In this document: piece after piece, positions 1,929 to 50,138 of the stretch
Layout of the letters: every line of letters starts with the position of its first letter
Numbering within the stretch: the stretch's first letter is position 1
Assembly (NCBI GenBank): GCA_949316235.1
Contig: OX438747.1
Coordinates: forward strand, 34,115,601 to 34,179,600
Source of the DNA: Oegoconia quadripuncta
Lineage: Eukaryota > Arthropoda > Insecta > Lepidoptera > Autostichidae
Reading direction: 5' to 3'
Length of the DNA: 64,000 bases
Notes under the pieces: model-generated
The model's input: only the letters and a program-made list of their open reading frames with translations
What the model was told of the DNA's origin: nothing
Database searches by the model: none
Translations under genes and position numbers: made by a program

Positions 1929-1994
1929 AAATAAGAATAGAATAGTTTAGCTTATCTTAATTTAGTAACGATAGGTAATTATTATTATTTGCAG

Positions 1995-9204: not shown

Positions 9205-9433
9205 TAATTTTTTTTTTATCCCAACTTGCGTTGAGGTTTTTTTACATTGCTCGATATACAAGAATATATATAAAGATATATTAGATAAAATAACTTGGGA
9301 TGGACTTCATTGGGTCGTGTCTCCTCCGCAGATGTTATGGGCTCGTTACAGCAGCGAATACAGAATGGATGATGGGATTTCCTGCAAGGAGTTATAGCAG
9401 ATGCAAATCCTGCCCAGGGCTGAAAAAAAAGTA
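9205..9433 (-). repeat. Dispersed repeat G, copy 1
   Basis: Begins with a T-run followed by ATCCCAACTTGCGTTGAGG and ends near GCAGATGCAAATCC...CAGGGCTGAAAAAAAA. A diverged copy is at 10250-10520. The T-run at the left suggests a minus-strand retroposon. Identity unknown. Confidence 0.5.
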
Positions 9434-10249: not shown

Positions 10250-10520
10250 TCTTTTTTTTTCATCCCAACTTACGTTGAGGGCTTTTTGGAATGCTCACTA
10301 AAAGAATATATATAGATATACGCTTATATTAAATCAAAAAACATTAACATTGGATATATCGTGTCTTCTCTCCATAGAGTACATAGACAAATAATAATTA
10401 AAATTATTTATCTATGGTATTGGTAAGGAGGACCCATTACAGAAGGGCGTAGAGGAGTTCTGGAGGCATGTCATGCACGGAGTTGTAGCAGATACAGATT
10501 CTACCTTGGCAGCCTGAAAA
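10250..10520 (-). repeat. Dispersed repeat G, copy 2
   Basis: Same leading T-run plus ATCCCAACTTACGTTGAGG and same ending (GTTGTAGCAGATACAGATTC...GCCTGAAAAAAA) as 9205-9433, with an A/T-rich insertion in the middle. Confidence 0.5.
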
Positions 10521-11218: not shown

Positions 11219-11289
11219 TCAGTTTAAAGACAACATCATCCTGCGGGTACACCCCAATTTCTCTAATTTTTCCACCTTTATCGAACATT
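11219..11289 (-). CDS. Gene B candidate terminal exon 19
   Basis: Acceptor attttgaatgcag, then 2 nt plus 23 codons in the required phase, ending TGA. It would add a Lys/Leu-rich tail with two Cys ([15 protein letters not shown]...). The intron to exon 18 would be 233 nt. No clear AATAAA follows, because a MITE lies at 11107. Another terminal exon is possible. Confidence 0.35.
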
Positions 11290-14200
11290 CTGCATTCAAA
11301 ATGTCCAACAAATCAGATGATGGAAATCGGATCAGTCGTATTTCATTCACGAGTTTGGGATCACCTCTTTAATTTCCATTTAAACATGTCGGTGGTAGTT
11401 TTTGTTACAATTTATATATTACTACTAGATGTGTTTATCCTGCTTTGATTATTATGGTCCTATTTATTATATGTATATAGATTAACTACAAGAGCTTCAG
11501 ATGTGAAAACTGTCATACGTACTTTGAGCTTGACCTTGGCTTTGGGCTTGGCTTTGGGATTGGCTTTGGGCTTGGCTCTGAGATTGACTCTGGGCTTGGC
11601 TCTGGGCTTGGCTCTGGGCTTGGCTCTGGGCTTGGCTCTGGGCTTGGCTTTGGGCTTGACTCTGGGCTTGGCTCTGGGCTTGGCTTTCAGCTTGGCTCTG
11701 GGCCTGGCTTTGGGCTTGGCTTTGGGCTTGACTCTGGGCTTGGTTCTGGGCCTGTCTCTGGGCTTGGCTCTGGGCTTGACTCTGGGCTTGGCTCTGGGCT
11801 TGACTCTGGGCTTGGCTCTCAGCTTGACTCTGGGCTTGGCTCTCAGCTTGACTCTGGGCTTGGCTTTGGGCCTGGCTCTGGGCCTGGCTCTGGGCCTGGC
11901 TCTGGGCCTGGCTCTGGGCTTGGCTCTGGGCTTGACTCTGAGCTTGACTCTGAGCTTGACTCTGTGCTTGACTCTGGGCTTGACTTTGAGCTTGACTCTG
12001 GGCTTGGCTCTGGGCTTGGCTCTGAGCTTGACTCTGGGCTTGGCTCTGAGCTTGGCTCTGGGCTTGGCTCTGAGCTTGGCTTTGAGCTTGGCTCTGAGCT
12101 TGGCTCTGAGCTTGGCTCTGAGCTTGGCTCTGGGCTTGACGCTGGGCTTGACTCTGGGCTTGACTCTGGGCTTGACTTTGAGCTTGACTCTGGGCTTGTC
12201 TCTGGGCTTGACTCTGAGCTTGACTCTGAGCCTGGCTTTGAGCTTGACTCTGAGCTTGTCTTTGACTTTGACTCTGAGCTTGGCTTTGAGCTTGGCTTTG
12301 AGCCTGGGCTTGTCTCTGACTTTGAGCTTGTCTCTGGGCCTGACTCTGAGCTTGACTCTGGCTTTGAGCTTGACTCTGGCCTTGGCTTTGGGCTTGACTC
12401 TGACTTTGAGCTTGACTTTGACTTTGGGTATATCCTGTAAAAAGTTATCGTTATGATCAGATATCAGAAAGAGAAAAAGAGAGTGTGATCGATATCTGAT
12501 TGATGCTATATCAATTTACCTTTAGGAATGATCCTCATAATTAGAACTGGGACGCCATTTTCGTGAACCTCTGTGTATTCGAAATCGTATTCGTCGTTAT
12601 CAGCGAGGACTGAAATCAGAATTCAAGAATTTACCTTCAATTGTTTCGATGTTGAATGTAGGTTCCTTTATTCGTTCTGTTTTTGGTATTATACTAGCAG
12701 AAAATGACAGCTACCTATCAATTGATATGAGCAATGTTTATAAATTTGAAATCCCTAAGCAGCCCTTTTGCGATATATTACCTAACGAGATCACCTAGAG
12801 TAGAGTACTTACATGGAATCTGGACATATCTGGATTGTCCTGAAACAAAAATGAGAAACAAAGTTGAATTGATATGATTTATTTGTGAGAATATGCAAAG
12901 TCTTGCATGGTATATTGGAAATGACAATGACCCTGACTTAGCGATCAGCAGGAATCAGAAAGAAATACTCAGGAGCTGGAATTGGCGACATAAATTATAT
13001 AGGGATTCCAAAAAAAAATGCTACGGATGCTACATGCCTAGGTCACATTGACATATTTATATCAACTTCACGGTTTATAATGCCTTTGAAGTAACCGACA
13101 ATTCCTCAAAAAGTAGCGTTGCGGACAGACATTGCTGACGGAGCACGTATTTCCTTTCGTCAGTATCTTGCTTGCATCCCACCAACTAGAGACGCCTGCT
13201 TCTGATGGTCGCGTTTTATTTAATGTACCATTTCTTTAATCAAATTGGTTGACCCCGATATAAAAATTTCGTTTTCCCAGCAGGTATAATGCCGCGAAGC
13301 ACGCGACTCTCACGCAATAGAATGTCGTCGCAATCTTCACAAACCTTCACTAAATATTACGGCAATAATCACAAACAAAATTTGAAAATGGACTTTTCGA
13401 CAATTTTATCGCCACAACAAATTGACTGCATCGATTATCGCCGTATTGTTCTATACAAGCTAGATACTATAGACAGAACAGCATTATATCGATGATGAAA
13501 GAACTCAATGTCTACGACAATTGTCTCCAGCTACACTGAGACGGGAAGGAGTGCTGTCAATATTAGAAATGCAGGATGGTTAATAAAGCAAGTAGACATT
13601 TTCAGAGCCTTCAACCAGTCTAGTTCTGAGCACCTCAACAAATTTCAAATGGTGACGTTTGATCATGTTGAGGACCGACATAAGTACTAAACACGTAGCT
13701 TTCAGCTGCGTCGCGAGGGGCGACGTAACCTCATTGTATGACAACAGCGTGCAACACATGATACCTCGCCAATCAGGAATAAAGATGGGGATATGATCCA
13801 GTAGTAATGCGTGACATCGTCTGTGTCCATTGCTGATGTACTCGACAATGCTGGATGTTATCACCAGATTACGAAATACACAGATGCAGTTTGCCCCGAC
13901 GCATCGTACCCTTCACTAATCCACAGAGGGCGTTAAACGCACAGCTTGTGATTCTCGCTTCCATATTGTTATGGTTGACAAATGCAACACACCAGAAGCG
14001 CCATCGGAGTCGCATTCTACAAAACACTAAACCTACATCATCGAATAAACCGCATATTGTAATACTGTCTACACCGTGAATAGTCCAGTGTGTGCATGTG
14101 AGAAAATAATATATTAAGGCAGTGTCACATGTAAGAAAAAGAAAACGAACGCACCGCCATCGTAACCTGTTTTGAAGAACAGGCCATCAGAAGTCGTCAA

Positions 14201-17200
14201 ACGTGGTATGAATTTGCCCAATATTTTGTGTTATTACGACAGTTCACGCACACTTTGGCAGATAAAAAATTGTCACACCCAATGAGCTCTTTGTTCGTCT
14301 ATACGCTACGATATTTTAAGTCGATCGATATATTCTTGACCAATGTTTTTAAATTTTTGTTCATGTGATTTCGGAAAAAAATAAATATCACTGAACGGTA
14401 GCAAGCAGATTTTTATACAAACCCGCGATTGTGCTAACCACCCCCGATTATGCTAACATATTAACTAGATAGTAGATTTAATACCAACTAAACCGATTTG
14501 ACTCGAATGTTTATAAAATAAAGTTCGCTTCAACAATTCGTGAACGTTAGCATATGTGAAAGATATTGATATCACAAGTGGTGAATTAACAAAAAGTGAA
14601 CCTATGATAAACAAGTATTGGATGATACATACCTTGGCTCTGGCTTTGGGCTTGGCTCTGGCTTTGAGCTTGACTCTGGCTTTGGGCTTGACTCTGGCTC
14701 TGGGCTTGGCTTTGGGCTTGGCTCTGGCTTTGGGCTTGGCTCTGGCTTTGGGCTTGGCTTTGGGCTTGGCTCTGGCTTTGAGCTTGGCTCTGGCTTTGGG
14801 CTTGACTCTGACTTTGACCTTGACTTTGACTGCCGTCGTCGCAGGAATCATGGCAGGTTTCAACTCCGTTGTCATCACAATCGTCGTGATAGGTGGTCAC
14901 TCCGTTGTTGTTTGTGGAAGACGAGTGAGATGAGTAGTGATAAGCTGCGGATTTGATTAATAGTCCAAAATATTTATTTCATAGGATAAAATTTATTGAA
15001 TACAAACGTGCGAAGAATTTGTGGTTCGAAAGATCGTTGTTAAGATAACTTGTTGGTCGCCACAATTATACCTGTACTTGTGTACTTCTTCAACGAATGC
15101 AAGTGCGAAAGAGACCCCCGGGTAATGAGTACGTAACTGAACTTAGAAATGACGATCTTTCGAACCATTAGCGCTATCGTTCATCGAGGAAGTATTCTGT
15201 CGCTGTATCGTGTCAATTCGTGTCTAGCATCGTAACTGTTTCGTACCGCACTTCTCTGCACGTTTCTACTTTGAAGTTCAGTCTTTACGGACTCATTTAG
15301 AATACGGGCTCTGATCCTTGCAATGGTAGACGGTTTATAGGCTAAATGCTCATCATTACGTGAAGGACTGTGTTGGTTTATGACTATTAAGATATTTTAT
15401 GTTAATAAACTTTATCACTAAATAGTATTAAACAAAGCCGCTTTGTCCCTATGTTTGTTTCTCCACTTACTTCATCTAAAGCACAATTTTCATTATCATT
15501 TAGAGATTTTTTTCGGAAGATTTCTATGGTATTTTATTAACTGGATACGCGTTTGACCACAATCTTACCTGATGGAAAGTGTCGATGTGGCCGAAGATGA
15601 AGCCTGCTATCTCAGTATATGCCTATTCACACGTACATGTTTATTATACATATTTATGGAAAGTAATTGCGCCCATACAGAGGCGGGGCAGGTCGTTATT
15701 AATTAATATAATACTCACAGTTAGGTTGTGCCTGACTCTGGCTTTGGGCTTGACTCTGGCTTTGGGCTTGGCCCTGACCTTGGCTTTGACCTTGACTTTG
15801 AGCTTGGCTTTGAGCTTGGCTTTGGGCTTGGCTTTGATCTTGGCTTTGAGCTTGGCTTTGAGCCTGGCTTTGGGCTTGACTTTGAGCTTGGCTTTGGGCT
15901 TGACTTTGAGCTTGGCTTTGGGCTTGACTTTGAGCTTGGCTTTGGGATTGACTTTGAGCTTGGCTCTGGGCTTGCGATTGGCTCTGATTCGGACTACCAT
16001 CGTCGCAAGAATCTTCGCAGCTTTCAACACCGTTGTCATTGCATTCGCTATGATGGGTGACTACTCCGTTGTTGTTTGTTGTAGAGGAACTAGATGAGTG
16101 GTAGTAATCTGTGAAATTAATAATAATACACAATAATACAAAAGTACACGTGGTCCAGTTTCGTGAAGACAATCAAGAAGATAAGTTCTTTATTGAGTAA
16201 CCATCAGTGGAATTTTTATATGAATGTTTCCGCGCTTCAGAAGGCATGTCAGTCGGTCCCGGTTATTTCCAATAAGATATTGCTTTTTAACATTAACATT
16301 ATTTGACAATCTACACTATAAGACGCCTACGAAAACCTGTAAAGGCTTGTGTGTAATGCGAATGAGGTCACTGACCCGCCGCGTTATTAATTATTACAAA
16401 AGTATGTAACGTAAATATCTTAGCTTGAAAACGTTGAGTATGAAATCGCCCTAGAAGTTCACCGACTTAGTTCAACGACTGCCTTCAAATAAAAACCACC
16501 GAGAACGTCTGTTTAATGTATTCTGTGAAACACGAAAACACTATTATACTAATAATTATAATATACTCACTGTTTGGATGATTTTGGCCTTGACTCTGGG
16601 CTTGGCTCTGAGCTTGGCTTTGGGCTTGGCTCTGCCCTTGGCCCTGGCCTTGGCTCTGGGCTTGGCTTTGGGCTTGGCTCTGGGATTGAGATTGGGCTGG
16701 TACGTAAGTAGGACCTTCTGCAAACAATTACAAAAGAATTTTTCAAGCTTGAAATTGATAGAATATGCAGGTAAAGAGGAAGGCGGAAAGTAGAGAGATG
16801 TGGAAAAATCTCCACCGACAAGAGCATGGCTCTTAAATCAGATGATGATGAGATTGATAGAATTTTGGAAGTATTGCTTTGCCTACTTGTTACTCAACCA
16901 CTTATGTATATTCGTAAGTATTTGTGATTCACCTATCGGTGATATCTCGCTCTTTGTCATAACACTGAATCAAACTTACAAATACACATGAAAGTAAAAA
17001 GGATTATTTTCGCCCGTCCACAAAAAAATTTGTTGCAAATGTTATCATTTCGCTCAAGCATACAAAACCCGTTTTTTGTTTATTATGTAAGGCTTGGCAA
17101 TTAAGCCATCAGCATAAACACGAAAACATTCTTCTAACGACAGAATGCTTTACGGAAGATTTTGCGGCTTCTTGTGGTCACCCGAAACTTTGTTACGCAC

Positions 17201-20200
17201 TTTAATTTACACTTGCACACCATTATAAGCTTCAAAACTCAGAATGCTCAAATTTCAAGAAATAAAAACAAAAATGCAACATCACTCGCTGAGTTTCCGT
17301 CAAGTCTAAATAAACCCATGTGAAAGCGATAAATTGTTTGATTGATACCGAGTATTTAAAATAATACTAGCATAGTAAATTATAGCTTACCATCACAGCA
17401 TTCGTCGCCACCGGCTGAAACAAGGAGTATAAAATGATACAAATACAAATACAAATAGTTTATTTGCCAATGAGATACTGAAGTTATAAATCGCACGCTC
17501 GTTTAAGAGGGTTTATCCCGCACGGCATTCCATACAAATTTTCATCACGAAAACCTTCATAAGTCCGACACGACACTTAAAAACATTGAAAACATACTAC
17601 TCTCCCCCATGAAGCTACTAGAGCAAGGCGAATAGGTGTGAGAGAGACGGAGATAGAGGCTAATGCCGTGATAGACAGAGTGAGGGAGAAGTTTAAGAAG
17701 CCGAGGCCTTTGAGTGAAAAGAAGCGAATTGTTAAGTAAGTTTGTTTTTTTATATTTCATCAAAATTTCAACAAAAAGATTTATTCAAACTTTATATTTT
17801 ATTATCGGAAAATTTGGCCTCAAAAGTTAGTATGGAATGCCGAGTTAAACCCTCTTAATGAGATAATTAAAACTTTGACGAGAGCGCCACTGGACTCCCT
17901 CTTAATTTGATTTGTTAGAGGATAGGTTTAAACACTTACATTCATTGCAGCCATCTATATAAAAAAAACAAAAATTAGTCTTAAAAAAGCAATAAATTTT
18001 ATTCCGAAGACCTCATTTAGAAAAAAAAATATTATATAGTAAGTCAAAATCGTCATACGAAAAAAAATATGTGAAAATACAATAATTGGCTTTTCATTCG
18101 AGATGTCAGAGTTTTTTTTTTATGCACATCGGGTTGTTACTTGACCTCAATCACGCGTGATGTTAAGTGAAGATGAGGTCGAAGTTGGAAGCGTACTGAC
18201 CCGGAAACCCCAACACATTTGGGGGACTGGCTATCTTATCTCTCCCAACAGGAACACAACAATGCTTTTCACATTGCTGTTTGGCGGCAGATTTAGATAA
18301 GATGGTGGTAGCTAGCCAGGCGGACTTTTAAAATGCCCTACCACCAACCAAACCGAGTATTTAAACATGTACCCCGCTGGGGATCGAACCCGCGACCTCC
18401 GAATCGTAAACCCAATGTTGTTTACATTGACTCACGGAGGCGGTCATAAATCTAAAACAGCAAATTGTATGTCTTTTATGCCTTTTGTTCACATGTGAAT
18501 ATATACATATAATTGTACAATGTTGTTTGTATATGGTGACATTTGTGTGCTGTGCATGCTGCATATATTATACTAGCTTTCCTCCCGCGACTTCGTCCGC
18601 GTGGAAGATTTTATCAAAATACAAACAACAAACTTTCATCCCCTATTTTATCCCCTTGGGGGTAGAATTTATCAAAATCCTTTCTTAGCGGATGCCTACG
18701 TCATAACATCTACCTGCATGCCAAATTTCAGCCCGAACCATCCAGTGGTTTGGGCTGGGCGTTGATAGATCACTATGTCAGTCACCTTTGAGTTATATAT
18801 ATTTAGATTGGGTCATTACCTATGAAATTGGAGTTTTTTTTCTTTCGTTAATCATAAATGTACCAATTCCTGCGATTTTCAAAGCTATATCCAAATTTGT
18901 TTTTTATTTGGAAAATGGAATATTGTTTCAAGGTTTCACCTGAAATATTTTTTAATTTCTGGGCTAAATCACATAATAAAAAAATTTGAACAGAGCTCTT
19001 TTCATGTGCTTCCCATAATCATTTCTTAGATTCGCTGAAACTTTTATAAAGCGGTTACTTTTAAAAATTAACGCTGCCTATACTTAACTTAATGTTATCC
19101 GATAATACACATAAATTTTAGCTAAATTTGGCTTTGGCGTTCCTAAAAAAAAAACAAAAATGTTTGTATGGAGAAAACAGTCTTAATGAAATTTTCATAC
19201 AAAACGCCAATTTCATAGGTAAGGACCTAATATATATGATAAAGATGAGCGGGGTCACCTGCCACAAGCATACTTATTATGCTTACTAGCTTGACTCCAT
19301 CCACTGTTCATAGTCACTATTATTTTAGACTGATATCAAGATTTTTGCATTTGTACTTACCACCGTTGTTGATTGGCACTGGAAAGAAAAAAAAAACACT
19401 ATTATTGCGATGTGAAAATAACATATTATCTTAAAATACGTTCAAATAGGTCGGACATACCTTCCCACAAACGAATCCTTTTAATAATTTTTTTTTATGC
19501 ACGACGAGTTCGTATTTGACCTCAATCACACCTGATGTTAAGTGAAGATGAGGTAGAAGGTGGAAGCGTACTGACCCGGAAACCCCAACACATTTGTGGG
19601 ACTGGCTATCTTTTCTCTGACAACCGGAACACAACAGTGCTATTAACATTGCTGCTTGGCGGCAGATTTAGATAAGATGGTGGTAGCTAGCCAGGCGGAC
19701 ATTTAAAATGCCCTACCACCAACCAAACCGAGTACTTAAACATGTAAGCTGGGAATCGAACCCGCGACCTCCGAATCGTAAACCCAATGTTGTTTAGATT
19801 GAGCCACGGAGGCGGTTATAATTTGTAAATGTAGAAAACCCCAAATAAGTATGTAGTTAACGAAAATTCGGACTAAGAGGTTCGACTCTTCAATCATAAT
19901 GCGAACAGCCAAGGCATGGAATCCCTTCCGGCGTCAGTCTTTCCTGAATCCTGCAACCTTGGGATCTTCAAGAGCAGAGTGAATAGGCATCTACTCTGAA
20001 ATCGCATGCTTCAATAATCGACCACATCGTCACTTTCCATTAGCAGGGCTACTAAGTACAACTTCGGGCGATTTAAATGAGAAAGAGTCGCGTGACATAT
20101 CGCGTGATATGGCCTCAAGTTGACGCTTGAGAATCTGCTGCATATTAAACAATATCAGAAAAAATGGTCTTTTGATAGTGGTCGGCTGTGGTCGGCTCCG

Positions 20201-25189: not shown

Positions 25190-25220
<31 letters not shown>

Positions 25221-28200
25221 TTAATACGGGGCCTAAGGTCCGTAATTCAGAATATTGCCCAAGCGTAGATCTGCCGTTGAGCATAGGTAGAGATGCCGTT
25301 ATACAAGTTATATAAAGCTGTCCCGTTTTAACTGTCCTCAAGCGGAGATCTCTGCTTGAGTAACATTCTATAATACGGGCCTAATTATTTTCGTAAAATT
25401 CTACAAAATTTAAAAAAGAAAAATAAAGTTTCCTTATTTTATAGAAACGAATGAAGCGATGTTTTTATGAAATAAACTACAGATTTAGAAACAATGCTGG
25501 GATCCAATGCTAGTTTAAAAAAATATATTTTATATAGATAGATAGATAGATAGATAAAAAGTTTATTGCATAAACTGGCACACATACAAAGGAGAAACAT
25601 GAACAAATAAGAAAACAAGAGACATACAATTTTTAACAAATACAAACAGATATAAACAAATATACCATAACATTAAAAATACCTTCAAGACTATATAGAA
25701 TATATGTGGGTATGTGTGCAACAGTCATGCAACAAGGCCATAGCTCAGCGCATTAAAAATGCTCAATAAATGAGCAAGCACTGATTTTCAGCTATCACCC
25801 AGGAGGCGCGCGGGAACAAGCATAAAAATGAAAAAAGAAAAGAAAAGTATGCAGAGGTGAATGAAACCGTATTATTCCGTCTACGAGAAGTGCTTAGGAA
25901 TACCCAGTTTTTGTTTATCTAGTAGGTACGATAAATATTGTTTTCTAAACGTATATTAATTATGTCAAATCAACATGACAGTAGTTGAGCAGTGACAGAT
26001 ATAAAATTATTATCTAGATACGTCATATTAAGTGCTGATATTTTTTTTAAATATTATAATCCGATAAAATTATTGTTTCCTTTTCTATGGGCCCTGGACA
26101 TACTAACATTTATGTTAGTAAGTCATATATTCATATTCATATAGTCTTTTCTATGGCCCCTGGACATACTAACATTTATGTTAGTAGGTAAGGTAATTAG
26201 TATCCAAAGCCGTAAAAATGTATATCAGCGCAACTGACAAAAGACACCCAATTTAAAGACTAATTTAAAAACTCTTCTTCAAAAACGCAAAAAATAACAA
26301 TTAATATTAAATTTAATTGTACATACCACCGCCGTTGGCTGGAACTGCAATAACAATAAAGACATCATTTATGAAACGCGAATGTTTGCAACTGAAACTA
26401 TGTGCAAGAGGCTAATATCAATTTTGATGAGATAACTAATAGATACGTCATTTATAAACATGAATATTTGCAACTGAAACTATGTGCAAGAGGCTATTAT
26501 CAATTTTGATGAGATGACTAATAGATACGTCATTTATAAACATGAATATTTGCAACTGAAACTATGTGCAAGAGGCTATTATCAATTTCAATGAGATGAC
26601 TAATAGATACGTCATTTATAAACATGAATATTTGCAACTGAAACTATGTGCAAGAGGCTATTATCAATTTTGATGAGATGACTAATAGATACGTCATTTA
26701 TAAACATGAATATTTGCAACTGAAACTATGTGCCAGAGGCTATTATCTATTGGATGAGATTACCAATAGCTACGTCATTTATAAAACATGAATATTTGCA
26801 ACTGAAACTATGTGCAAGAGGCTATTATCAATTTTGATGAGATGACTAATAGATACGTCATTTATAAACATGAATATTTGTAACTGAAACTATGAACAAG
26901 AGGCTATTATCAATTTTGATGAGATTACCAATAGATACGTCATTTATAAACATGAATATTTGTAACTGAAACTATGAACAAGAGGCTATTATCAATTTTG
27001 ATGAGATGACTAATAGATACGTCATTTATAAACATGAATATTTGCAACTGAAACTATGTGCAAGAGGCTATTATCAATTTTGATGAGATGACTAATAGAT
27101 ACGTCATTTATAAAACACGAATGTTTGCAACTAAAACTATGTGCAAGAGGCTATTATCAATTTTGATGAGATGACTAATAGATACGTCATTTATAAAACA
27201 TGAATATTTGCAACTGAAACTATGTGCAAGAGGCTAATATCAATTTTGATGAGATAACTAATATATACGTCATTTATAAACATGAATATTTGCAACTGTA
27301 ACTATGTGCAAGAGGCTAATATCAATTTTGATGAGATGACTAATAGATACGTCATTTATAAACATGAATATTTGCAACTGAAACTATGTGCAAGAGGCTA
27401 TTATCAATTTTGATGAGATGACTAATAGATACGTCATTTATAAACATGAATATTTGCAACTGAAACTATGTGCAAGATGCTATTTTGATGAGATTCCGAC
27501 TTCTTATTTTCTTTGTTTATCACTTCCAAGTAAAATAATTAAAGTAGTTCAGTACATACCCAGTCCTCCTCCTTGGCTCTGACTTTGGCTTTGAGATTGC
27601 GACTGTGCTTGGCTCTGAGTTTGAGATGGGGCATATCCACCTTTTGTTGCAAATAGCAAAAAACAATAAGTGTGAAACGAAAAATAAGCATACTGCGTGT
27701 GAAATTAAAAATTGAATTTAGCAAACTTTGACAGCTATATGCATTTTTGCTGGATGGTCAGCGTCATATTCTTTCTAATAGGTCTTTACCTATGAAATTG
27801 CCGTTCTGCAGTAGGTACTGGCCATTTCAAATCAAAAGAATTTTTGTTTGGCTAAGAATTCTAATTTCAAATTAATTTTATTTTAAAAACATGGAATTCT
27901 TTTTCCAAAAGTAGTCATTTGTTTATTGATTAGTGTTACATTTTCATCGCATTTCAATCTTTTTCGTCATCATGGATACGTTAAAAATTCGAGTAATTAT
28001 GGAATATGAGTACCGTCGTGGCAGCAACGCGGCACAAGCGGCACGCAACATCAACGATGTTTACGGAGCTAACACTACAAACCAACGCACCACCTGTTAT
28101 TGGTTTGCTCGCTTCCGTTCTGGGAATTTCGACCTGAAAACTGAACCTCGCGGTCGTCCGAAGACTTTGGTCGACAATGATGAATTAAAGGCGATTGTGG

Positions 28201-31200
28201 AAGCTGATGATAGACAATCTACGGCTGAATTAGCTGCAGCTTTCGACGTTAGCGTCAAAACAATATTGGTCCATTTGCGTCAAATTGGCAAGGTAAAAAA
28301 GCTTGACAAATGGGTGCCCCACGAACTCAATGATCGCCAGCGCGAAGTACGCGTCGAGACGTGCCTTGCACTGCTCAACAGACATACAAATGAAGGAATT
28401 TTGAACCGCATTGTTACCTGCGATGAAAAATGGATTCTGTTTGATAACCGCAAGCGCTCAGCAAGTTGGTTGGATCCTGGTTCAGCACCTAAACAATGCC
28501 CTAAACGAAAACTTACCCCTAGAAAAGTGATGGTCACTGTTTGGTGGTCTAGCGCCGGTGTGATTCATCACAGCTTCTTACCAAACGGGATGGGCATTAC
28601 TGCAGATGTGTTCTGTGAAGAACTGAACACAATGATGGAGTAGCTGACACATCTCCAACCAGCATTGGTCAATCGCTCCTCTCCGCTGCTCCTGCACGAC
28701 AACGCGCGACCTCATACTGCACAGCAGACGGTCTCCAAGTTGCAAGAACTGGGGTTGGAAGCTCTCCGTCATCCGCCCTACTCACCAGACCTTGCGCCTA
28801 CAGACTACTACTTTTTCCAGAATTTGGATAACTTCTTGGCAGGAAAAAAATTCAATACCCGAGAGGCAGTACAAAATGCCTTTGAAGAATTTGTTGCCTC
28901 CCGTCCAGCTGATTTCTTTAAGAAGGGCATCAATAAACTGCCACTGCGTTGACAAAGATGCATTGATTGCATGGGTGATTACTTCGATTAATACAAATAA
29001 AAAATACATGAAAAAAATTCGTTTAAATTTTTTCATACAAAACGGCAATTTCATAGGTAAAGAGAAATACCTAATATTAAAGAGTTAACACCTGAACACT
29101 ATTAAATCATAAAAACTTACGTTTTAGCGTTTGTACTATATTAATTCTGTGGTTTTAGTTAAAATATATTTTGTCTCTTTTGAATTTTGAATAACTTTGC
29201 AAAGTTTCACTAGGTACTAAAGATTGATAGCATAGGTATATTACTTACCACCATCTCCGCAGTCATCTGACAAAAAAAGAAAAAAGTGGTTAAAGACATT
29301 GGCACTTCGCAAAATGTGCACTTGACGAAAAATGTGTATTTCGCATAATGCGCACTTCGCAAAATGTTTACTTCGTAAAATGTGCACTTCTCATTGTGTA
29401 CACTTCTCAATATGTGCACTTTTTATCACAACAACGGTCTTAAAAAAATTCTTTGCTTAACTGAGTATTAAAAAAAAAAACACTTTTACAAATTGATCGT
29501 CAGTACATTTTGCGAAGTGCACATATTTCGTGAAGTGCACATGTTGAGAAGTGCAGATTTGCGTCAAACCCCTTCAGAACCATAGTATCTCTAAAAATAT
29601 TTGCGATATTTTCTGTATTTTCGGAATAAAAATTAAAGTTTGTACGATCTATAGTTGCCGTGAATGTTTAAATTAATAAGTTATTGCGGGGATTACTGCG
29701 TCACTTTCACTTATACTTAATTAATAGAGTTGTATGTGTATCACAAATGCGGCATCGTGTAGATACCTACCTACAACTAGGCTTGCTAACTCTCCCGGAA
29801 AAAAGACATTAGATTTTAAAATCTCCCGACACCAGAAACGCAGCTGGAATTACATATCTCAAACGCCGCCTCTGAATGTGTTTCGCATTTTATTTTTTTC
29901 GCATTTATAATATTAGTTAGTGATTAGTCCATTGTAGAATGAAACACTAATAGAATTGGTCATTTGTAGAATTAGTATTTTATAGAATATAGGCATTTGT
30001 AGAATTAGTCTTGTGTCGACTAAACGAACTAAAACTAGAAGAACAATAAAATAAAACACTCGAAAGCGTAGGCATGATATCATCCTAATCCACCAAACAA
30101 TAGATCGATGGGACAGCAATTAACTTTTCCCCGCGGACCACGCATTACTGAGACACATTAGCAATTAGCACTTATTAGCAGTGAAAAACAATGGCAAACT
30201 AACCTCCGCACTAGTAAATATACTGTATTGCGGGATATAATGTGTAAAGCGTAGTAAACGAACAATTGTCTAAAAATCGCCAACACACTTTCAAAATACA
30301 CATTTTATAGTTTATAGAATTCTATGATTTTATAGTTTCGAAACAAAAGCTGCTCGCAGTGTAAAAAAGACAGATTTAAATTAATAATCTTTGAGTTTCA
30401 TTAAATCATTTTTTCACCTCCCGGATTTCTGATCAACTGACTCGGCAACACTACCTACAGGTACTTTATTTTGTGGCCTGCGAGTGAAAGCGAAAAATTG
30501 ACAAATAATCCACATTATTATGATTACTTTTAAGTTGATTTTATGGTAGGAGATATACTTATCCCCAAACAGTGCCTCAATCATAACGCATTAGTTAAAT
30601 TTACTTATTAACTTGACATAAAATCAGTTAATGTGAAAAGAACGAGAGTGACCGTCAAATTTGAGAAACTTTGGGAACTATGGATTTTATTTGTAGTTTT
30701 CGTCACATTGTTTATCTTATTATTAAAGTTTTTGACATTATTGCTCATTCACAAAGCTGATTCCCCAGAGAAGAACGAGCAATAAACTCAAGTGTTGCTC
30801 TTTTAAATAAGTTTGGGTTAAAATTATATTATATTGTATAATTAGACTGAATATCGCCGAGCGGTCTATGTCCATGCTTGCTTATCATTCAGATAGTCAG
30901 AAATTTTGTTGCCTTTGGTAAATAATGTCTGTTTTATGATGGTTTTGAATTTATTTAAAGGTAAATTTTAAATGTCCACTGGAACCTTATTATAAAAGCT
31001 GGCATCTCAAGCTGTGCCCCCAACAGTGGGGATGTTAACCTGGTAATGTAAGTTAATAATAAAAATACTCACCCCCAAGACCCACTGCAAAAAAGGAGAA
31101 AGTAAAGAAATATTAATATAACAATGTTAAAGATACACTTCACAGAAGATATAATTAAACACTCAAAAATTAACAATGCACGACTGTTTTCTTCTTCAGT

Positions 31201-34200
31201 AATGTTTTTTTTTTTAATATTTCGCACACTTACACCAATCATCTAGTCCCAAACTAAGCAAAGCTTGTACTATGGATACTAGATAACGGATAAACATACA
31301 TAAATATTTATATAAATATACATTACTCAGGAATCAATGTTCATATTCATGACACAAACATTTACCCGTCGCGGGATTCGAACCCGCAACAGTTGGTTTC
31401 GCTGACAGGGTCACTATCCACTACACCAATTGGTCGTCTAAATTCTATTCCTTATCTCCGCAATACATCATGAGATCACAACCAAATTTAAATGGCACCA
31501 CCCTGGTGATAAACCCTATCAGATAATAAAACAATCATCAAAATAGATTAACAATTGACGAAAATATGGACGAACATACATACATGTTGAATACTTACAT
31601 GATTCCTAAATTTCTTATCAGACCTTATAAACTGTATTCTGGCAAATAAATAATTTCTTTCTTTCTTTCATACATAACGTCCGACCTTTATCCCAAACGG
31701 GTGGTCAGAGATATCCCAAACATTAGCGTTTGGAGTCTCCAAACATTAAAAGATGAAACAACAAACACGGTTCATCTTTCTATTGGGTCTTTACCTATGA
31801 AATAGGAGTTTTTTTTCTTCGTTAATCATTTATGTACCAATTCCTGCGATTTTCAAAGCTATATCCAAATTTGTTTTTTATTTGGAAAATGGAATATTAT
31901 TTCAAGGTTTCACATGAAATATTTTTTAATTTCTGGGCTAAATCACACAATAAAAAAAAATTGAACAGAGCTCTTTTCATGTGCTTCCCATAGTCATTTC
32001 TTAGATTGTCTGAAACTTTTATAAAGCGGTTACTTTTAAAAATTAACGCTGCCTATAATTAACTTAAAATTTTATCCGATAATGCACACAACGTTTAGCT
32101 AAATTTGGATTTGCTGTTCCCAAGAATAAATAAAAAATGTTTGTATGGAGAAAACAGTCTTAATGAAATTCTTCATACAAAACGCCAATTTCATAGGTAA
32201 GGAACTAATATAATCAGTATTTTATTTATATAGCTATAGTATAGGTTTTTATTGACATAGTTTCTGTAATATATTTGTATATAGCAAACACTTATTTACT
32301 CTACATATAATACAATGCTATAAAAAGAAAAATGAGCACTGAAGCATACGTTCACGAGGCAGAACACATGTTTCAGGTCACTGCTCTGTGGCAGGATGAG
32401 AAAGTTTTTTTTTATGCACGACGGGTTCGTACATATATTATATTAGGCTTTTTGGCGGGATCTCGGCGAGTGAAGTAGCATTTTTGTTTATAATTCATAG
32501 AATTTGTGCATTCTAATGGCCTAATATTGTGTAGCAAAAGTTAGTGATGGTGTAGATTACGAGTAAGTGAAGGGAAGTGTAAATTAAAGTGCGTAACGAA
32601 GCTTTCGGGTTCCCTCAAGAAGCCGCCAAAATCTTTTGTAAAGCATTCTGCCACTTTACTGAAGAATGACTTGACTATGACTAGACTCTGTTTACGCCAA
32701 GTATACGACTAATTACTTGTTTTGACTGAGACTGACTAATAAATTGAAGAAATAAGAGAAATAAGACATGGCTGTATGGGCTTAGATCCCTATGCCTTCT
32801 CCGAAAGGAGTGAATAAACGAAAAAAAAATTATATTATATTATATATCGTACGGGTTGCAGCTATAGCTGTATAGCCAGACTTATGCACTGGCCCAGATG
32901 GCAACCCTCTAATCGCCCGATACTTCGACCAGGCGCGTCACCAGCTCTTTGAAGAGCTGACGCGCCTCCGTTCCCGATGGCTCTATTGTCTCTACCTATA
33001 CAAATGTTAGCGGCCGACACAAAAAAATAGAAAATATGTCTAAGGACTTACAATTTGGCATTGCCTGTGCGCTCAGGATCTGTAAAGAAAAATAGGTTCT
33101 GCGTTTAAAACACTTTTAAAAAGAAAAAGAATTGCCAACAAATACCACAGAAAATTTAGTAGGAATTTATGCATATATATTTTTTATTTGTCTTTATTAC
33201 ATTGCACTAATGTCAAATAGGTAGATTGCTTGAAGTTTTCACAAAAAGTTGTGTTATACGACCAATAAACTGGTCCACGTCTAACGGATAAATCTTTTAC
33301 AATTTTTTGCGTTAGACCCTCCGGAGACCTGAGAGCTGGTGCCTACTTTGCTCAGCAGCTGAACTTATGCACGCTTGCGTACTGCGTACTATGCCTCACG
33401 GAAGCGAGCTAACGGCGTATTTTTACTATAAGTTAGGTTTATTAAGTATGTACATGAAACAACAAAATAAAACACAATTAAAAATACCTATATCTTATAG
33501 AAAAAATACGCCGTCCAACTCGCTTCCGTGAGGCATAGTACCTAGTACGCTAGCGCTATTGCTCCGCTGAATGCATAAGCTCAGCTGCTGAGCAAAGTAG
33601 GTACCAGCTCTCACATCTCCAGAGGCGTGGACCAGTCTAACGGATAAATCCTTTACAAATTGTTTCGTGTCAGAAGACCACGGGCCCAATGTCTCCACTG
33701 CAAGCGCCGCAAACTCGTGGTTTATAGAGATTGACGCATATTTACGGCGCTTGTTACTTTGAGCTTGTTCAGCCGCGGTTCCAGCTCTTTGCGCAGTTCC
33801 TTGTATAAGATATATTTTAATAACGACTAATATATTGTTATGTTATGTATCCTACATTGAGGTAAATTTTAGATCGAATTAAGAGTGTCTATTCCGTCCA
33901 GTGGCGCCCTCATTGGATAAATTAAGACTTTTAAATACAGATTAAATAAAAAAATCACACTCGTTATGCCTAACAAACTAGGTAATTACGAATAATACTT
34001 AAATATCTTTGATGGCGGTTATTTTACAGAATTCACGATTATACAAAAAAAGGGGGCGTTCTTATCAATAATTGTAAATTCTCGAAAATAACCGCAAATA
34101 AGGTATTATTATTATTAAATTCTTTATTGCACACAAAAATAAAATACAATGAACATTTAACATAGATGACGAAGGCGATCTTATTCCAGTCAACCTCGTT

Positions 34201-34648
34201 AATTTTTAATAAGTAGTTGGATAGTCTATGTACCTACTAAATAACTTAAATATCAGTAGGTACATAGAAAATACATAGGCATATTGGAATCAGTTTTAAT
34301 TATCTTTAAAGAGCTTTAAAGAGGAAGACTTCTCGAGTGCAGGTTAGTGCAACATTTTTGATTTATGCTGTATATATACATATGTATAATAATAAATATA
34401 AATATCCTTGGACATACACACAATGCCATCAAATTCCACCTTGTGTTGTGGATACGAGATGGTTGATATACTACACTTGATATCTATAACTCGGTAGTAG
34501 TTGAAGTTTCTAACCACTACACCAAAAAGAAATCTAATTTATCCATTGAGGGCGCTACTGGGCGGGTTAAGCCCCTTTGCTTCATAGTTATTAAAAAAAA
34601 ACTTACACTGAGTGCGCAGACCACGACGAAAGATAGTGAGAAATGCAT
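11219..34648 (-). CDS. Gene B: secreted modular Gln/Ser-repeat protein with Cys-Asp-Gly microexons (about 19 coding exons)
   Basis: Exons, in transcript order: 34648-34607, 33079-33052, 31084-31073, 29266-29249, 27640-27560, 26344-26327, 22332-22315, 21792-21766, 20480-20346, 19378-19361, 17954-17940, 17414-17391, 16717-16571, 16108-15719, 14944-14633, 12839-12813, 12609-12520, 12434-11523, and tentatively 11289-11219. Every junction is GT-AG. The first intron is phase 0, all later ones are phase 1, and the sum is 2385 nt (794 aa). The product starts with a 20-aa signal peptide (cut after AQA). Alternating QSQA/QSQS tracts then separate short Gly/Asp/Cys linkers. A duplicated Cys domain lies at about residues 195-360, a hydrophobic strand ([13 protein letters not shown]) near 455-468, and a Q-rich block of about 300 residues after it. 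I know no named family. Composition and secretion suggest an extracellular structural protein, for example silk-, mucus- or cuticle-like; this is inference. A TATA box lies upstream. The 3' end is the least certain part. Confidence 0.75.
11523..12434 (-). CDS. Gene B exon 18: 912-nt Gln-dipeptide repeat exon
   Basis: 304 codons read almost entirely as Gln alternating with Ser, Ala, Gly or Arg (QSQAQSQSQ...), with no stop and no ATG. The acceptor is cttttacag at 12435 and the donor GTACGT at 11522, both phase 1. The underlying DNA is a degenerate repeat of about 12 bp, so the complementary strand is also open as Leu-Gly/Leu-Ser in several frames. The minus reading is preferred because its ends match splice sites and its phase matches all other gene B exons. 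Confidence 0.8.
12520..12609 (-). CDS. Gene B exon 17: acidic-plus-hydrophobic linker
   Basis: 90 nt between the acceptor ctgatttcag and the donor GTAAAT. Encodes [14 protein letters not shown] then [15 protein letters not shown]. It is the only non-repetitive, strongly hydrophobic stretch in the mature protein and looks like a beta-strand pair. Confidence 0.7.
12813..12839 (-). CDS. Gene B exon 16: 27-nt microexon
   Basis: Acceptor ttgtttcag and donor GTAAGT flank 27 nt encoding QSRYVQIP in phase 1. It links the Q-tract of exon 15 to the exon 17 linker. Confidence 0.65.
13285..13920 (+). pseudogene. Unrecognised decayed coding remnant in gene B intron
   Basis: Balanced, coding-like sequence with frames open for 60-90 codons but broken by stops and frame changes (for example, a stretch reading [13 protein letters not shown] then KQVDIFRAF). 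It faintly recalls the linker before a cyclic-nucleotide-binding domain, but the match is too weak to name. It could equally be a dead transposon or a retrocopy. The rest of the intron, to 14632, shows nothing recognisable. Confidence 0.25.
14633..14944 (-). CDS. Gene B exon 15: Cys domain plus Q-tract (copy 2)
   Basis: 312 nt, acceptor aaatccgcag, donor GTATGT. The N-terminal part reads [17 protein letters not shown], then [17 protein letters not shown], then a (QSQA)n tract. It is a clear duplicate of exon 14 in both order and sequence. The four-Cys pattern C-x7-C-x3-C (with paired Asp) is conserved. Confidence 0.8.
15530..15626 (-). mobile_element. LINE 3' tail fragment (63729 family)
   Basis: Matches the 3' end of the LINE at the right edge of the window (shared ACCTGATGGAAAGTG and GCCTATTCAC words, minus strand). 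Intronic in gene B, between exons 14 and 15. Confidence 0.6.
15719..16108 (-). CDS. Gene B exon 14: Cys domain plus Q-tract (copy 1)
   Basis: 390 nt (130 codons), acceptor ttcacag at 16109, donor GTGAGT. Reads [17 protein letters not shown], then [17 protein letters not shown], then a long QSQA/QSQS tract ending AQPN. The Ser/Asn-rich head could be O-glycosylated and the clustered Cys could form disulfides; both are inferences. Confidence 0.8.
16571..16717 (-). CDS. Gene B exon 13: Q-tract exon
   Basis: 147 nt, acceptor tgtttgcag, donor GTGAGT. Encodes [10 protein letters not shown], then QSQ/QGQ dipeptides and GQNHPN. It is the homologue of exon 9 in the duplicated four-exon cassette. Confidence 0.8.
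17137..17296 (-). mobile_element. Fragment of retroposon family D
   Basis: A partial, diverged, reverse-oriented copy (shared GAATGCTTTACG, GCGGCTTCTTGTGG and CTCGCTGAG words), intronic in gene B. Confidence 0.6.
17391..17414 (-). CDS. Gene B exon 12: 24-nt microexon
   Basis: Acceptor ttgtttcag and donor GTAAGC flank 24 nt encoding GGDECCD in phase 1. Homologous in position to exon 8. Confidence 0.75.
17940..17954 (-). CDS. Gene B exon 11: 15-nt microexon
   Basis: 15 nt encoding GCNE in phase 1, between acceptor tttatatag and donor GTAAGT. Its position in the cassette corresponds to exon 7. The acceptor tract is A-rich, so this is less certain than its neighbours. Confidence 0.55.
18112..18443 (-). 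mobile_element. SINE-1 (tRNA-derived), full copy
   Basis: The minus strand starts with a tRNA-like head (GCCTCCGTGAGTCAATG as A box; GGTCGCGGGTTCGATCCC as B box), then a conserved 200-bp body, ending GTGCATAAAAAAAA. Other copies are at 19489, 36551, 38165 and 50892, with fragments elsewhere. Confidence 0.85.
18570..18790 (+). repeat. Lepidopteran dispersed repeat 'CTAGCTTTCCTCCCGCGACTTCG'
   Basis: Starts TACTAGCTTTCCTCCCGCGA and runs to CACTATGTCAGTCACC. The opening motif recurs at 46470 (TAGCTTTCAGCCCGCGACTT) and in diverged form at 62550. The class is not certain; it is common in lepidopteran introns. Confidence 0.55.
18808..19229 (+). mobile_element. Mariner-derived MITE, copy 1
   Basis: About 420 bp, ends TTGGGTCATTACCTATGAAA and TTTCATAGGTAAGGACCTAA, with TA-rich flanks. 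The terminal 25-30 bp match the full mariner at 27779-29073. No coding capacity. Confidence 0.75.
19361..19378 (-). CDS. Gene B exon 10: 18-nt microexon
   Basis: 18 nt encoding PINNG in phase 1, acceptor tctttccag, donor GTAAGT. Homologue of exon 6 (PANGG). Confidence 0.75.
19489..19816 (-). mobile_element. SINE-1 copy
   Basis: The same tRNA-like head and body as the copy at 18112, with the poly(A) end at the left. Intronic in gene B. Confidence 0.85.
19885..20016 (+). mobile_element. LINE ORF2 C-terminal remnant
   Basis: Decayed frame with the pattern [13 protein letters not shown] ... FLNPATLG related to the LINE end at 63765-64000 ([18 protein letters not shown]). It ends around GAATAGGCATCTAC. 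Confidence 0.6.
20346..20480 (-). CDS. Gene B exon 9: Q-tract exon
   Basis: 135 nt, acceptor tttcttgcag, donor GTATGT. Reads [11 protein letters not shown], then QSQA/QAQA dipeptides and QSQGGGV. Homologous to exons 5 and 13. Confidence 0.8.
20563..20679 (+). mobile_element. Harbinger-type MITE family 1, half copy
   Basis: Starts GGCCCGTATTAATAAATCAATC and matches the right arm of the full element (CTTGAGGCTGTATCAAC, TTGACGCTATCTCAAGCTCC), then breaks off. Confidence 0.7.
20898..21055 (-). mobile_element. MITE family F, truncated copy
   Basis: Matches the complete element at 56116-56301 in inverse orientation (GGATATTTCTCGTTTTATTT, TCGCCTGTGCACACTTAACG, ATTACACCCAG). One terminal arm is missing. 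Confidence 0.65.
21272..21675 (+). mobile_element. Retroposon family D, complete copy with 12-bp target duplication
   Basis: Starts GGCTTTTTGGCGGGAACTCG and ends in an AAGAAGAAG tail. AATTCGTTTTTA occurs on both sides (21260-21271 and 21676-21687). This shows LINE-style retrotransposition of a 404-bp unit. Intronic in gene B. Confidence 0.8.
21766..21792 (-). CDS. Gene B exon 8: 27-nt microexon
   Basis: 27 nt encoding HGDDGCSD in phase 1, acceptor tatgtttcag, donor GTACGT. Confidence 0.75.
22000..22090 (+). mobile_element. SINE-2 tail fragment
   Basis: Matches, inverted, the tail of the tRNA-derived repeat at 31231-31434 (CCGTTATCTAGTATCCATAG, ACAAGCTTTGCTTAGTTTGG). Confidence 0.55.
22315..22332 (-). 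CDS. Gene B exon 7: 18-nt microexon
   Basis: 18 nt encoding DCCDD in phase 1, acceptor atttttttctag, donor GTGAGT. Confidence 0.75.
22605..22800 (-). mobile_element. LINE 3' UTR with (GAAAT)n tail
   Basis: The minus strand reads CTCTGAGTTTCTCGCTAGCTC and ends ATGAATAAATGATTTTCATTTC with ATTTC repeats. The same UTR is at 41990-42082, and a short piece at 42525. Intronic in gene B. Confidence 0.6.
23262..24370 (-). mobile_element. LINE 3' portion, decayed
   Basis: The minus strand encodes broken reverse-transcriptase C-terminal pieces: [32 protein letters not shown] (24110-24367, described in segments) and RFFNKVP with [10 protein letters not shown] near 23830-23950. A UTR with TTTCTTGCTTGTTCTTCTC follows. 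CR1/Jockey-like. It shares its coding sequence with 56292-57063. Confidence 0.65.
24763..25077 (+). mobile_element. Harbinger-type MITE family 1
   Basis: Begins GGCACGTATTAATAAATC after a TAA and ends ATATTGTTTATTACAGGG. The internal CTTGAG/CTCAAG palindromes match the copy at 4736 in reverse. Intronic in gene B (exons 6-7). Confidence 0.7.
25237..25381 (+). mobile_element. Short Harbinger-type MITE (145 bp) with perfect TAA duplication
   Basis: The left arm GGTCCGTAATTCAGAATATT and the complement of the right end, GGCCCGTATTATAGAATGTT, pair over about 45 bp. TAA flanks both sides. The remains of another family 1 end (TTAATACGGGGCC) lie just to the left. Confidence 0.75.
25510..25690 (-). 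mobile_element. LINE tail with (TAGA)n
   Basis: The minus strand ends with GTTTATGCAATAAACTTTTT followed by TATC repeats, a typical LINE simple-repeat end. No coding part. Confidence 0.4.
26085..26195. repeat. Two-copy direct repeat containing a hairpin
   Basis: TTTTCTATGGGCCCTGGACA / TTTTCTATGGCCCCTGGACA, each followed by the palindrome CTAACATTTATGTTAG, about 60 bp apart. Confidence 0.8.
26327..26344 (-). CDS. Gene B exon 6: 18-nt microexon
   Basis: 18 nt encoding PANGG in phase 1, acceptor ttgttattgcag, donor GTATGT. Confidence 0.75.
26366..27490. repeat. 82-bp minisatellite, about 13-14 copies
   Basis: Unit about 82 bp, containing CATTTATAAACATGAATATT, GCAACTGAAACTATGTGCAA and GAGGCTATTATCAATTTTGA. 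Copies differ by few substitutions, so the array is young. It lies within gene B's intron between exons 5 and 6 and begins 22 bp from exon 6. On the gene's strand, each unit carries an acceptor-like CATAGTTTCAG. Confidence 0.95.
27560..27640 (-). CDS. Gene B exon 5: Q-tract exon
   Basis: 81 nt encoding [10 protein letters not shown], then QSQ repeats and GGGL in phase 1. Acceptor gcaacaaaag, donor GTATGT. Shortest of the three GYxP/GVYP-type Q exons. Confidence 0.75.
27779..29073 (+). mobile_element. Full-length mariner element, inactivated
   Basis: About 1.29 kb between inverted ends (TCTTTACCTATGAAATTGCC ... GGCAATTTCATAGGTAAAGA), near TA dinucleotides. It inserted in gene B's intron between exons 4 and 5 and shares its termini with MITEs at 18808, 31783 and 50161. 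Confidence 0.85.
27972..28991 (+). pseudogene. Mariner transposase pseudogene (DD34D)
   Basis: 339 codons from the ATG at 27972 to TAA at 28989-28991, close to the usual 345-aa mariner length. The N-terminal paired HTH region is clear, and the catalytic Asp residues are present in CDEKW, HDNARPH and PDLAPTD, with 34 residues between the last two Asp. Two in-frame stops, TAG at 28641 and TGA at 28950, make it non-functional. It would cut and paste the element at TA sites. Confidence 0.9.
29249..29266 (-). CDS. Gene B exon 4: 18-nt microexon
   Basis: 18 nt encoding DCGDG in phase 1. Acceptor ttttttgtcag, donor GTAAGT. Confidence 0.75.
29297..29550. repeat. Inverted arrays of degenerate 14-16-bp words
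   Basis: 'CACTTCGCAAAATGTG'-like words repeat at 29297-29420. Their complements (CATTTTGCGAAGTGCACATA) recur at 29505-29555, forming a loose foldback. Noncoding; class unknown. Confidence 0.55.
29915..30015. repeat. Short-word array TTTGTAGAATTAG
   Basis: 'ATTTGTAGAATTAGT' variants recur about four times with drifting spacing. From 30015 to 30690 the sequence is AT-rich intron with nothing recognisable. Confidence 0.4.
30690..31020 (-). mobile_element. LINE 3' end, decayed
   Basis: Minus-strand UTR with TTTATTGCTCGTTCTTCTC and remnants of the C-terminal frame (AATAAGGTTCCAGTGGACAT). The same family as 60065-60357. Intronic in gene B. Confidence 0.55.
31073..31084 (-). CDS. Gene B exon 3: 12-nt microexon
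   Basis: Twelve nucleotides, TGGGTCTTGGGG, between acceptor cttttttgcag and donor GTGAGT. In phase 1 it adds Leu-Gly-Leu-Gly. The ideal flanking signals and fitting phase support it, but such a short exon needs cDNA proof. Confidence 0.6.
31231..31434 (-). mobile_element. SINE-2 (tRNA-derived) copy
   Basis: Minus-strand head GGTGTAGTGGATAGTGACCC and B box GTTGCGGGTTCGAATCCCGC, with a tail of CATAGTACAAGCTTTGC. Also at 38626. Confidence 0.7.
31783..32207 (+). mobile_element. Mariner-derived MITE, copy 2
   Basis: Starts TTGGGTCTTTACCTATGAAA after TA and ends TTTCATAGGTAAGGAAC. Closely matches 18808-19229 over its full length. Confidence 0.75.
32404..32829 (+). mobile_element. SINE-1 tail stub joined to retroposon family D
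   Basis: A T-run plus ATGCACGACGGGTTCGTAC (32404-32431) is a truncated SINE-1 end. From 32456 a family D copy runs to a poly(A) end near 32829, with ATTATATTA-like repeats on both sides. Confidence 0.65.
33052..33079 (-). CDS. Gene B exon 2: end of signal peptide
   Basis: 28 nt, phase 0 in and phase 1 out, encoding ILSAQAMPN. It completes a 20-residue signal peptide with an A-Q-A cleavage site. Acceptor ctttacag, donor GTAAGT. Confidence 0.75.
33265..33425 (+). mobile_element. Reverse-transcriptase C-terminal fragment, left arm of a palindrome
   Basis: Plus-strand frame [15 protein letters not shown]. It is the near reverse complement of 33493-33698, with about 70 bp between the arms. Confidence 0.6.
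33493..33698 (-). mobile_element. Reverse-transcriptase C-terminal fragment, right arm of a palindrome
   Basis: Minus-strand frame with the pattern [12 protein letters not shown] ... [15 protein letters not shown] ... [14 protein letters not shown], as at the end of certain LINE ORF2 proteins. It converges tail-to-tail on the left arm. Confidence 0.6.
34100..34240 (-). mobile_element. LINE 3' tail
   Basis: The minus strand ends TTTTGTGTGCAATAAAGAATTTAATAATAATAATACC, like the tails at 6962, 46605 and 53186. (Quoted in parts: GTGTGCAATAAAGAATTTAA.). Confidence 0.55.
34395..34530 (-). mobile_element. SINE-3 fragment
   Basis: Shares ATACACACAATGCCATC, GTTGTGGATACGAGATGG and CTAACCACTACACCAAA with the repeat at 53345-53588. 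It lies in gene B's first intron... just downstream of exon 1 on the minus strand. Confidence 0.55.
34607..34648 (-). CDS. Gene B exon 1: start codon and signal-peptide core
   Basis: ATG plus 13 codons ([14 protein letters not shown]), ending phase 0 at a GTAAGT donor. An upstream in-frame ATG at 34780 exists but lies beyond the TATA box, so 34648 is preferred. A 42-nt first coding exon ending inside the signal peptide is also seen in silk fibroin genes of moths; this resemblance is architectural only. Confidence 0.75.
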
Positions 34649-49760: not shown

Positions 49761-50138
49761 TCATTTATTCAAAAACACATAATCACTCTGCCCGTTCTGT
49801 TCTTGAATGTATACCAAAAGCGGCCTCGTCTTCGTTCTTCTCTTCTCTATCTCATCCAGCAGCTCCTGCCCTGTTGGCTGCAGGTTCAGGATCATTGAAG
49901 TCGGCTTCGGGTATTGTAAGTATCTGAATATCTCTAGGTTTTTGTAATCGTTGTCCCAATTTAAATCTTCATTTGCGTTGTTTGAATCAACTTCGGAATT
50001 GCAATCAGAGTCTGCATTCGCATCTGCATTTGCGTCGGCATTAGCTTCAGACTTAGCTAAAGCATCAGAAAATTTCTCATGATCCTCCACATCGATTTCC
50101 TCTTCTATTTCGCAATCGTTGATTGTCAGTTGCAAAAT
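49761..50138 (-). CDS. Gene C exon 4 (terminal)
   Basis: 378 nt from the acceptor cgattacag to TGA. Begins [19 protein letters not shown], contains the [12 protein letters not shown] repeat, and ends YVFLNK. AATAAA overlaps the stop codon region. Confidence 0.7.
   Translation of the reverse strand: MLQLTINDCEIEEEIDVEDHEKFSDALAKSEANADANADANADSDCNSEVDSNNANEDLNWDNDYKNLEIFRYLQYPKPTSMILNLQPTGQELLDEIEKRRTKTRPLLVYIQEQNGQSDYVFLNK

Follow-up and report, generated by a model that had tools for sequence, protein, structure and literature searches.

A many-exon moth gene for a secreted Gln/Ser-repeat protein, probably a sericin-1-like component of the silk coat

We describe a spliced gene of about 19 mostly tiny exons that, in our assessment, quite probably is functional and encodes a sericin-1-like secreted silk-coat protein of a moth. 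The spliced gene itself is confirmed at the sequence level, with the last exon given in a preliminary description corrected. The assignment to sericin 1 is made because of a CICY motif in two alternative last exons; it is conditional on the splicing of exon 18, with sericin 1 (Ser1) taken from published descriptions.

Results

Small phase-1 exons form one reading frame

The window, by which we mean the whole stretch of 64,000 nucleotides that was analysed, corresponds to C6:34115601-34179600 of a 622.6 Mb assembly in 45 contigs. On its minus strand, 18 exons could be joined in a single frame from 34648 to 11497, with the QSQA-rich exon 18 taken as the end (Table 1). All 17 introns (17/17), amounting to 20,812 bases altogether, are of the GT-AG type, and no stop codon occurs within exons 1-18 of the joined frame. 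The 17 accepted donors scored between 6.4 and 11.1, and the acceptors between 6.2 and 14.1 in 16 cases, with exon 5 standing out as weak at 1.1. Exon 1 ends in phase 0 and exon 2 leads from phase 0 to phase 1; from there on, both boundaries of every exon from 3 to 17 lie in phase 1. The protein start encoded by exons 1 and 2 resembles a signal peptide. Several exons appear in duplicate (exons 6 and 10, and exons 14 and 15), and the microexons 4, 7, 8, 11 and 12 are similar to each other. It had been proposed earlier that scattered Q-rich blocks and tiny exons form one in-frame product of the minus strand, and this is what we found; the exon chain and the composition also support its portrayal as a secreted Gln/Ser-repeat protein in which Asp/Cys/Gly linkers occur alongside a Cys domain present in two copies and a Q block some 300 residues long.

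Table 1. Coordinates of the gene and its candidate ends within the window
Feature	Positions	Strand	Length (bases)	Remarks
TATA box TATATAA	34728..34734	-		86 bases upstream of ATG
Exon 1	34607..34648	-		signal peptide, first part; phase 0 out
Exon 2, ILSAQAMPN	33052..33079	-		signal peptide end; phase 0 in, 1 out
Exon 3, LGLG	31073..31084	-	12	microexon
Exon 4, DDCGDG	29249..29266	-	18	Cys/Asp/Gly microexon
Exon 5, Q/S block	27560..27640	-	81	weak acceptor, 1.1
Exon 6, VPANGG	26327..26344	-	18	
Exon 7, DDCCDD	22315..22332	-	18	
Exon 8, SHGDDGCSD	21766..21792	-	27	
Exon 9, Q/S/A block	20346..20480	-	135	
Exon 10, VPINNG	19361..19378	-	18	resembles exon 6
Exon 11, DGCNE	17940..17954	-	15	
Exon 12, SGGDECCD	17391..17414	-	24	
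Exon 13, Q/S/A block	16571..16717	-	147	
Exon 14, Cys domain copy 1 (YYHSS..DSCDDGS) and Q/S/A block	15719..16108	-	390	
Exon 15, Cys domain copy 2 and Q/S/A block	14633..14944	-	312	
Exon 16, GQSRYVQIP	12813..12839	-	27	
Exon 17, non-repetitive	12520..12609	-	90	30 residues
Exon 18, spliced form	11523..12434	-		QSQA array of ~300 residues; phase-1 donor GTACGT after 11523
Alternative end, exon 18 unspliced	11463..11499	-		stop 11499-11497, AATAAA 11468-11463; product 779 aa
Last exon copy T1, ..CQGRICICYNSVHDMPPELLYALL + stop	10437..10513	-		acceptor 6.3; product 796 aa
Last exon copy T2, ..LGRICICYNSLQEIPSSILYSLL + stop	9346..9419	-		acceptor 12.3; product 795 aa

Two of the introns carry repeats: an 82-base satellite (26365-27484; 13.6 copies, 94% match) lies between exons 5 and 6, and pieces of a Mariner-type transposase (27930-28952; PF01359, PF17906) lie between exons 4 and 5. 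Outside the gene, a plus-strand open frame of 626 residues (1975-3855) matches the Baculovirus F protein family (PF12259, E 2e-43) and, on this match, is the envelope-like gene of an endogenous retroelement. Another plus-strand frame, of 192 residues (6272-6850), points towards the gene; it apparently comprises the end of a signal peptide followed by a secreted charged protein, and has no Pfam or database relative. On the minus strand, a 170-residue frame with an (AN/AD) repeat (49761-50273), without a Pfam match, is possibly an exon of another gene.

The exon chain and its frame exceed chance expectation

We scanned for composition-biased, phase-symmetric exons under fixed thresholds, with the other phases, the other strand and the rest of the window as controls. 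Between 11.4 and 34.7 kb on the minus strand, the scan returned 11 exons in phase 1-1, a count that is favoured by splice weights derived from the gene's own introns, whereas the zeros of the controls are not. All of them (11/11) belong to the model, namely exons 4, 6-9, 11-15 and 18, while exons 3, 5, 10, 16 and 17 fell below the thresholds. No exon was returned in phases 0-0 and 2-2 on the minus strand of the gene stretch, on the plus strand, or on either strand of the other 29.3 kb of the window, and 30 Markov simulations of the scan gave a mean of 0.

The reading frame is under constraint. Among the 72 units of the exon 18 array, minor variants numbered 16, 11 and 96 at codon positions 1, 2 and 3, respectively (96 of 123 at the third position, with tandem copies counted as independent), and pairwise comparison of the array at three lags yielded 103, 68 and 333 differences at the same positions. 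The arrays of exons 5, 9, 13, 14 and 15 show a third-position excess as well, though a weaker one. The copy of the Cys domain in exon 15 is 67% identical to that in exon 14 (55-residue query); at the heads of these two exons, 18 of 38 codons are identical, while 9 differ synonymously and 11 non-synonymously, which proves little by itself.

Could the locus nonetheless be a decayed, silent relic, or a collection of chance frames on a 12-base satellite? A 12-base array does occupy 11535-12402, the introns hold the 82-base satellite and the mariner pieces, one acceptor is weak, and weak Q/S matches are scattered through the genome. Yet exons 1-18 contain no stop and are joined by GT-AG introns throughout, the third-position bias occurs in both the array and the last exons, the excess of exons is specific to strand and phase, and a second gene is built in the same way (see below). 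We therefore regard a relic or chance origin as very improbable.

Exon 18 probably continues into one of two duplicated last exons

At the end of exon 18, the donor GTACGT after 11523 leads out in phase 1, as in exons 3-17; its score of 5.5 is below those of all 17 accepted donors. Two candidate last exons, T1 and T2, lie 1.0 and 2.1 kb downstream of exon 18 on the same strand and have phase-1 acceptors. Both encode GRICICYNS...LYxLL, which places CICY 15 residues from the C-terminal end. Their 22-residue cores differ by 5, 1 and 15 bases at codon positions 1, 2 and 3, corresponding to 9 synonymous and 8 non-synonymous codons; the exon stretches are 74.6% identical over 63 bases and the 3' flanks 78.2% over 87 bases. 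Polyadenylation-type signals follow at 146 bases past the T2 stop (AATAAA) and 195 bases past the T1 stop (ATTAAA). A seven-position signature, built from T1 and T2 themselves so that its rarity is partly post hoc, occurred only at these two places in six frames of 234 kb (94 kb at this locus plus 140 kb surrounding the second gene), and a looser motif scan gave many chance matches. Judging from these sequences, T1 and T2 look like tandem copies of one last exon under constraint.

An exon ending at 11219 had previously been put forward as exon 19. We rejected it, given that its acceptor scored only 3.1 compared to 6.3 for T1 and 12.3 for T2, and either T1 or T2 is likely the better last exon; all three would share the exon 18 donor at 11523. 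The idea that exon 18 is not terminal was probably right, even though the target exon was wrong. The products of 796 and 795 residues are near the 794 residues stated earlier by coincidence.

Alternatively, exon 18 could be the terminal exon, in which case the gene would encode a 779-residue structural secretion of the same composition that is not sericin 1, and the CICY exons would be part of another gene of the sericin type, either a neighbour or a remnant. The read-through stop at 11497 is indeed followed by AATAAA 28 bases further on, and the donor at 11523 is weak. This donor, however, keeps the phase of exons 3-17, the acceptors of T1 and T2 are both in phase 1, and between 11.5 and 9.3 kb we saw no further set of exons upstream of them, which makes a terminal exon 18 rather unlikely. 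Exon 18 is, in our view, probably spliced on to a last exon.

The composition fits an extracellular coat or gel

With T2 as the last exon, the product consists of 34.3% Gln, 21.4% Ser and 14.5% Ala and contains 16 Cys (2.0%). For the 779-residue reading, the GRAVY value is -1.36 and the pI 4.16, with only 0.1% Lys and 1.0% Arg. This composition fits an extracellular fibre coat or gel, in agreement with the fibre or gel nature suggested in the preliminary description.

Pfam gave no family for two pieces of the gene without the last exons, chorion and chitin-binding models included, and one join of non-repeat pieces, likewise without the last exons, had no match in the PDB. A 493-residue query lacking the CICY exons had 26 protein database matches at E<=0.01 among 7992 scored, and those with a named organism were bacterial, fungal, protist or algal. 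The second gene found no match in the protein database; a non-repeat neighbour used as control likewise found none, so that this search says little about moths. The string QSQAQSQ had no match in a text search of the literature.

Composition alone would suit any cross-linked extracellular gel, so the product might instead serve outside larval silk, for example as an egg glue of the female accessory gland, in the eggshell or cuticle, or as a gut-lining gel. We consider such a role improbable, given that the CXCY C-terminus is reported for silk-gland sericins in excerpts of PMC9684489 and PMC9745057, and that Pfam returned none of the families, chorion and chitin-binding ones among them, for the two pieces tested.

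A second, similarly built gene lies 2.06 Mb away

A second gene was found at C6:32063119-32024456 on the minus strand, 2.06 Mb from the sericin-like gene. Its 36 exons, chosen from scans such that some are possibly missing, encode 1015 residues. Its two-exon start is the same, and it too has phase-1 exons, together with QSQA/QSQG blocks and Cys/Asp/Gly/His microexons, as well as a Gly/Ala-rich tail that includes a 6-base exon; the CXCY end is absent from the 36-exon model. The exon scan, in whose weights the splice sites of this gene played no part, returned 26 phase 1-1 exons here and none in the other phases or on the other strand, compared to a mean of 0.13 and a maximum of 1 in simulations.

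In the genome as a whole, the best 13 of 65 protein matches at E<=0.01 fell in the two C6 loci, with weaker ones scattered (150 of 2702 candidates scored), and 16 of 17 DNA matches were on C6, the remaining one being on C3. Arrays of QSQA also occur at C12:17676654-17677961 and 17713044-17714189, in frames of 436 and 382 residues; their flanks are quite different (EP-rich repeats and a Cys-Cys end), and they are candidate relatives at most. Within about 45 kb of the second gene we observed three frames with Cys-rich repeats (CEPEPC, CDDPC, CDKPEPTCDQ), at C6:32003223-32003816 (+), 32009966-32010397 (-) and 32105404-32107998 (+), which are likely further secreted structural genes.

Discussion

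Sericin 1 is described as the regular innermost coat of moth silks, with repeats that diverge beyond recognition. Fibrohexamerin has matches in the genome in question on C1 and, more weakly, on C17, and the fibroin light chain has one on C17; both families occur in moths, butterflies and caddisflies, and we treat the source as a moth. A CXCY or CXCX motif near the C-terminus is encoded by both copies of the last exon, provided that the 11523 donor of exon 18 is used. The resemblance to silkworm Ser1 presumably goes further, with a Gly-Lys/Arg-Ile-Cys-x-Cys-aromatic core followed by Ile/Met-Pro. The product also has the character of a secreted, hydrophilic repeat protein (signal-peptide-like start, GRAVY -1.36, Q 34.3%, S 21.4%). 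Tandem repeats reside in the large exons 14, 15 and 18, but small exons are duplicated too. In the excerpts of PMC9684489 and PMC9745057, CXCY near the C-terminus is a mark of sericin 1, and the latter describes CXCX in this position for all Ser1 proteins and places the production of Ser1-like proteins in the rear middle silk gland, where they form the first layer on the fibroin core. The preliminary description knew of no matching named family; with this motif in the twin last exons (PMC9684489, PMC9745057) and with 28.9% Gln listed for the sericin 1 of Yponomeuta cagnagella, this statement is not supported.

After removal of the signal peptide, the protein would form a strongly hydrophilic coil in which QSQA spacers are interspersed with short acidic Cys/Asp/Gly knots, and which is closed by a short C-terminal piece bearing CICY. 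It may coat the fibroin core within the middle silk gland and glue the fibres, with the Gln/Ser spacers binding water and neighbouring chains. The acidic Cys microexons are likely cross-link points: Cys residues in both the knots and the C-terminal motif could form disulfides, maybe with help from metal binding at the acidic knots. Three processes probably enlarged the gene: symmetric phase-1 exons were duplicated, slippage took place within the QSQA exons, and the last exon was copied, which may yield two alternative C-termini.

More tentatively, and with some doubt on our part, sericin 1 may here have been rebuilt as a cassette gene, in which every phase-1 microexon of 12-27 bases contributes a single acidic Cys knot to the chain of QSQA spacers and the duplicated last exon offers two CICY ends, so that splicing could vary the length, the number of cross-links and the terminus in frame, with the 36-exon second gene encoding a sister polymer. 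If this were true, the scarcity of Lys and Arg and the microexons would cause such genes to be missed by ORF-based annotation and by trypsin-based silk proteomics. Taken as sericin-1-like, the case illustrates how far sericin 1 can diverge, with Gln in place of Ser, microexon cassettes in place of a few large exons, and two possible ends. It also provides a search recipe for similar genes, namely chains of phase-1 microexons with a CXCY exon at the end, and a natural blueprint for hydrophilic polymers that can be cross-linked. Its relevance is mainly to the evolution and annotation of silks, and less that of a new kind of system.

How does the gene compare with known silk proteins, as far as excerpts of the published descriptions go? 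Sericin 1 of Yponomeuta cagnagella (YC-Ser1) likewise has CXCY near the C-terminus, Gln as the top residue, a hydrophilic character and a length of about 1000 residues (PMC9684489). Its Gln content is 28.9% versus 34.3% in our product with T2, and its GRAVY value -1.73 versus -1.36 in the 779-residue reading (PMC9684489). In contrast, YC-Ser1 has 8 exons, with the repeats in large exons (PMC9684489), whereas we found about 19 exons, most of them tiny and in phase 1, and a duplicated last exon. Pyralid Ser1A and Ser1B as well as Bombyx mori Ser1 share CXCX near the C-terminus, and the silkworm gene is alternatively spliced, but in the tables for the pyralid proteins the dominant residue is Ser, Thr or Ala and not Gln (PMC9745057).

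The zonadhesin-like silk proteins are also secreted, contain Cys and are encoded by several exons. They differ by their TIL/EGF domains and 12-15% Cys (PMC9684489, PMC11906653), compared to no Pfam domain in the tested pieces and 2.0% Cys here; TIL (zonadhesin-type) matches are found elsewhere in the genome, on C9, C11, C12 and C13. Silk mucins have many exons, for instance 25 in the table and 24 in the text for Y. cagnagella Muc2 (985 residues, 17.1% Gln), and Muc1 duplicates whole exons (PMC9684489), as does our gene; Gln reaches 25.7% in Ephestia Muc1 (PMC9745057). Their C-termini, however, carry a three-Cys motif (CXCYCZ or NCFCTC; PMC9684489, PMC9745057), which is absent from both of our last exons, where CICY holds two Cys. 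According to the part of PMC9684489 used here, sericins keep their repeats in large exons, while mucin 1 duplicates whole exons. The gene described here combines both patterns, with repeats in large exons, whole-exon duplication, about 19 exons and twin last exons.
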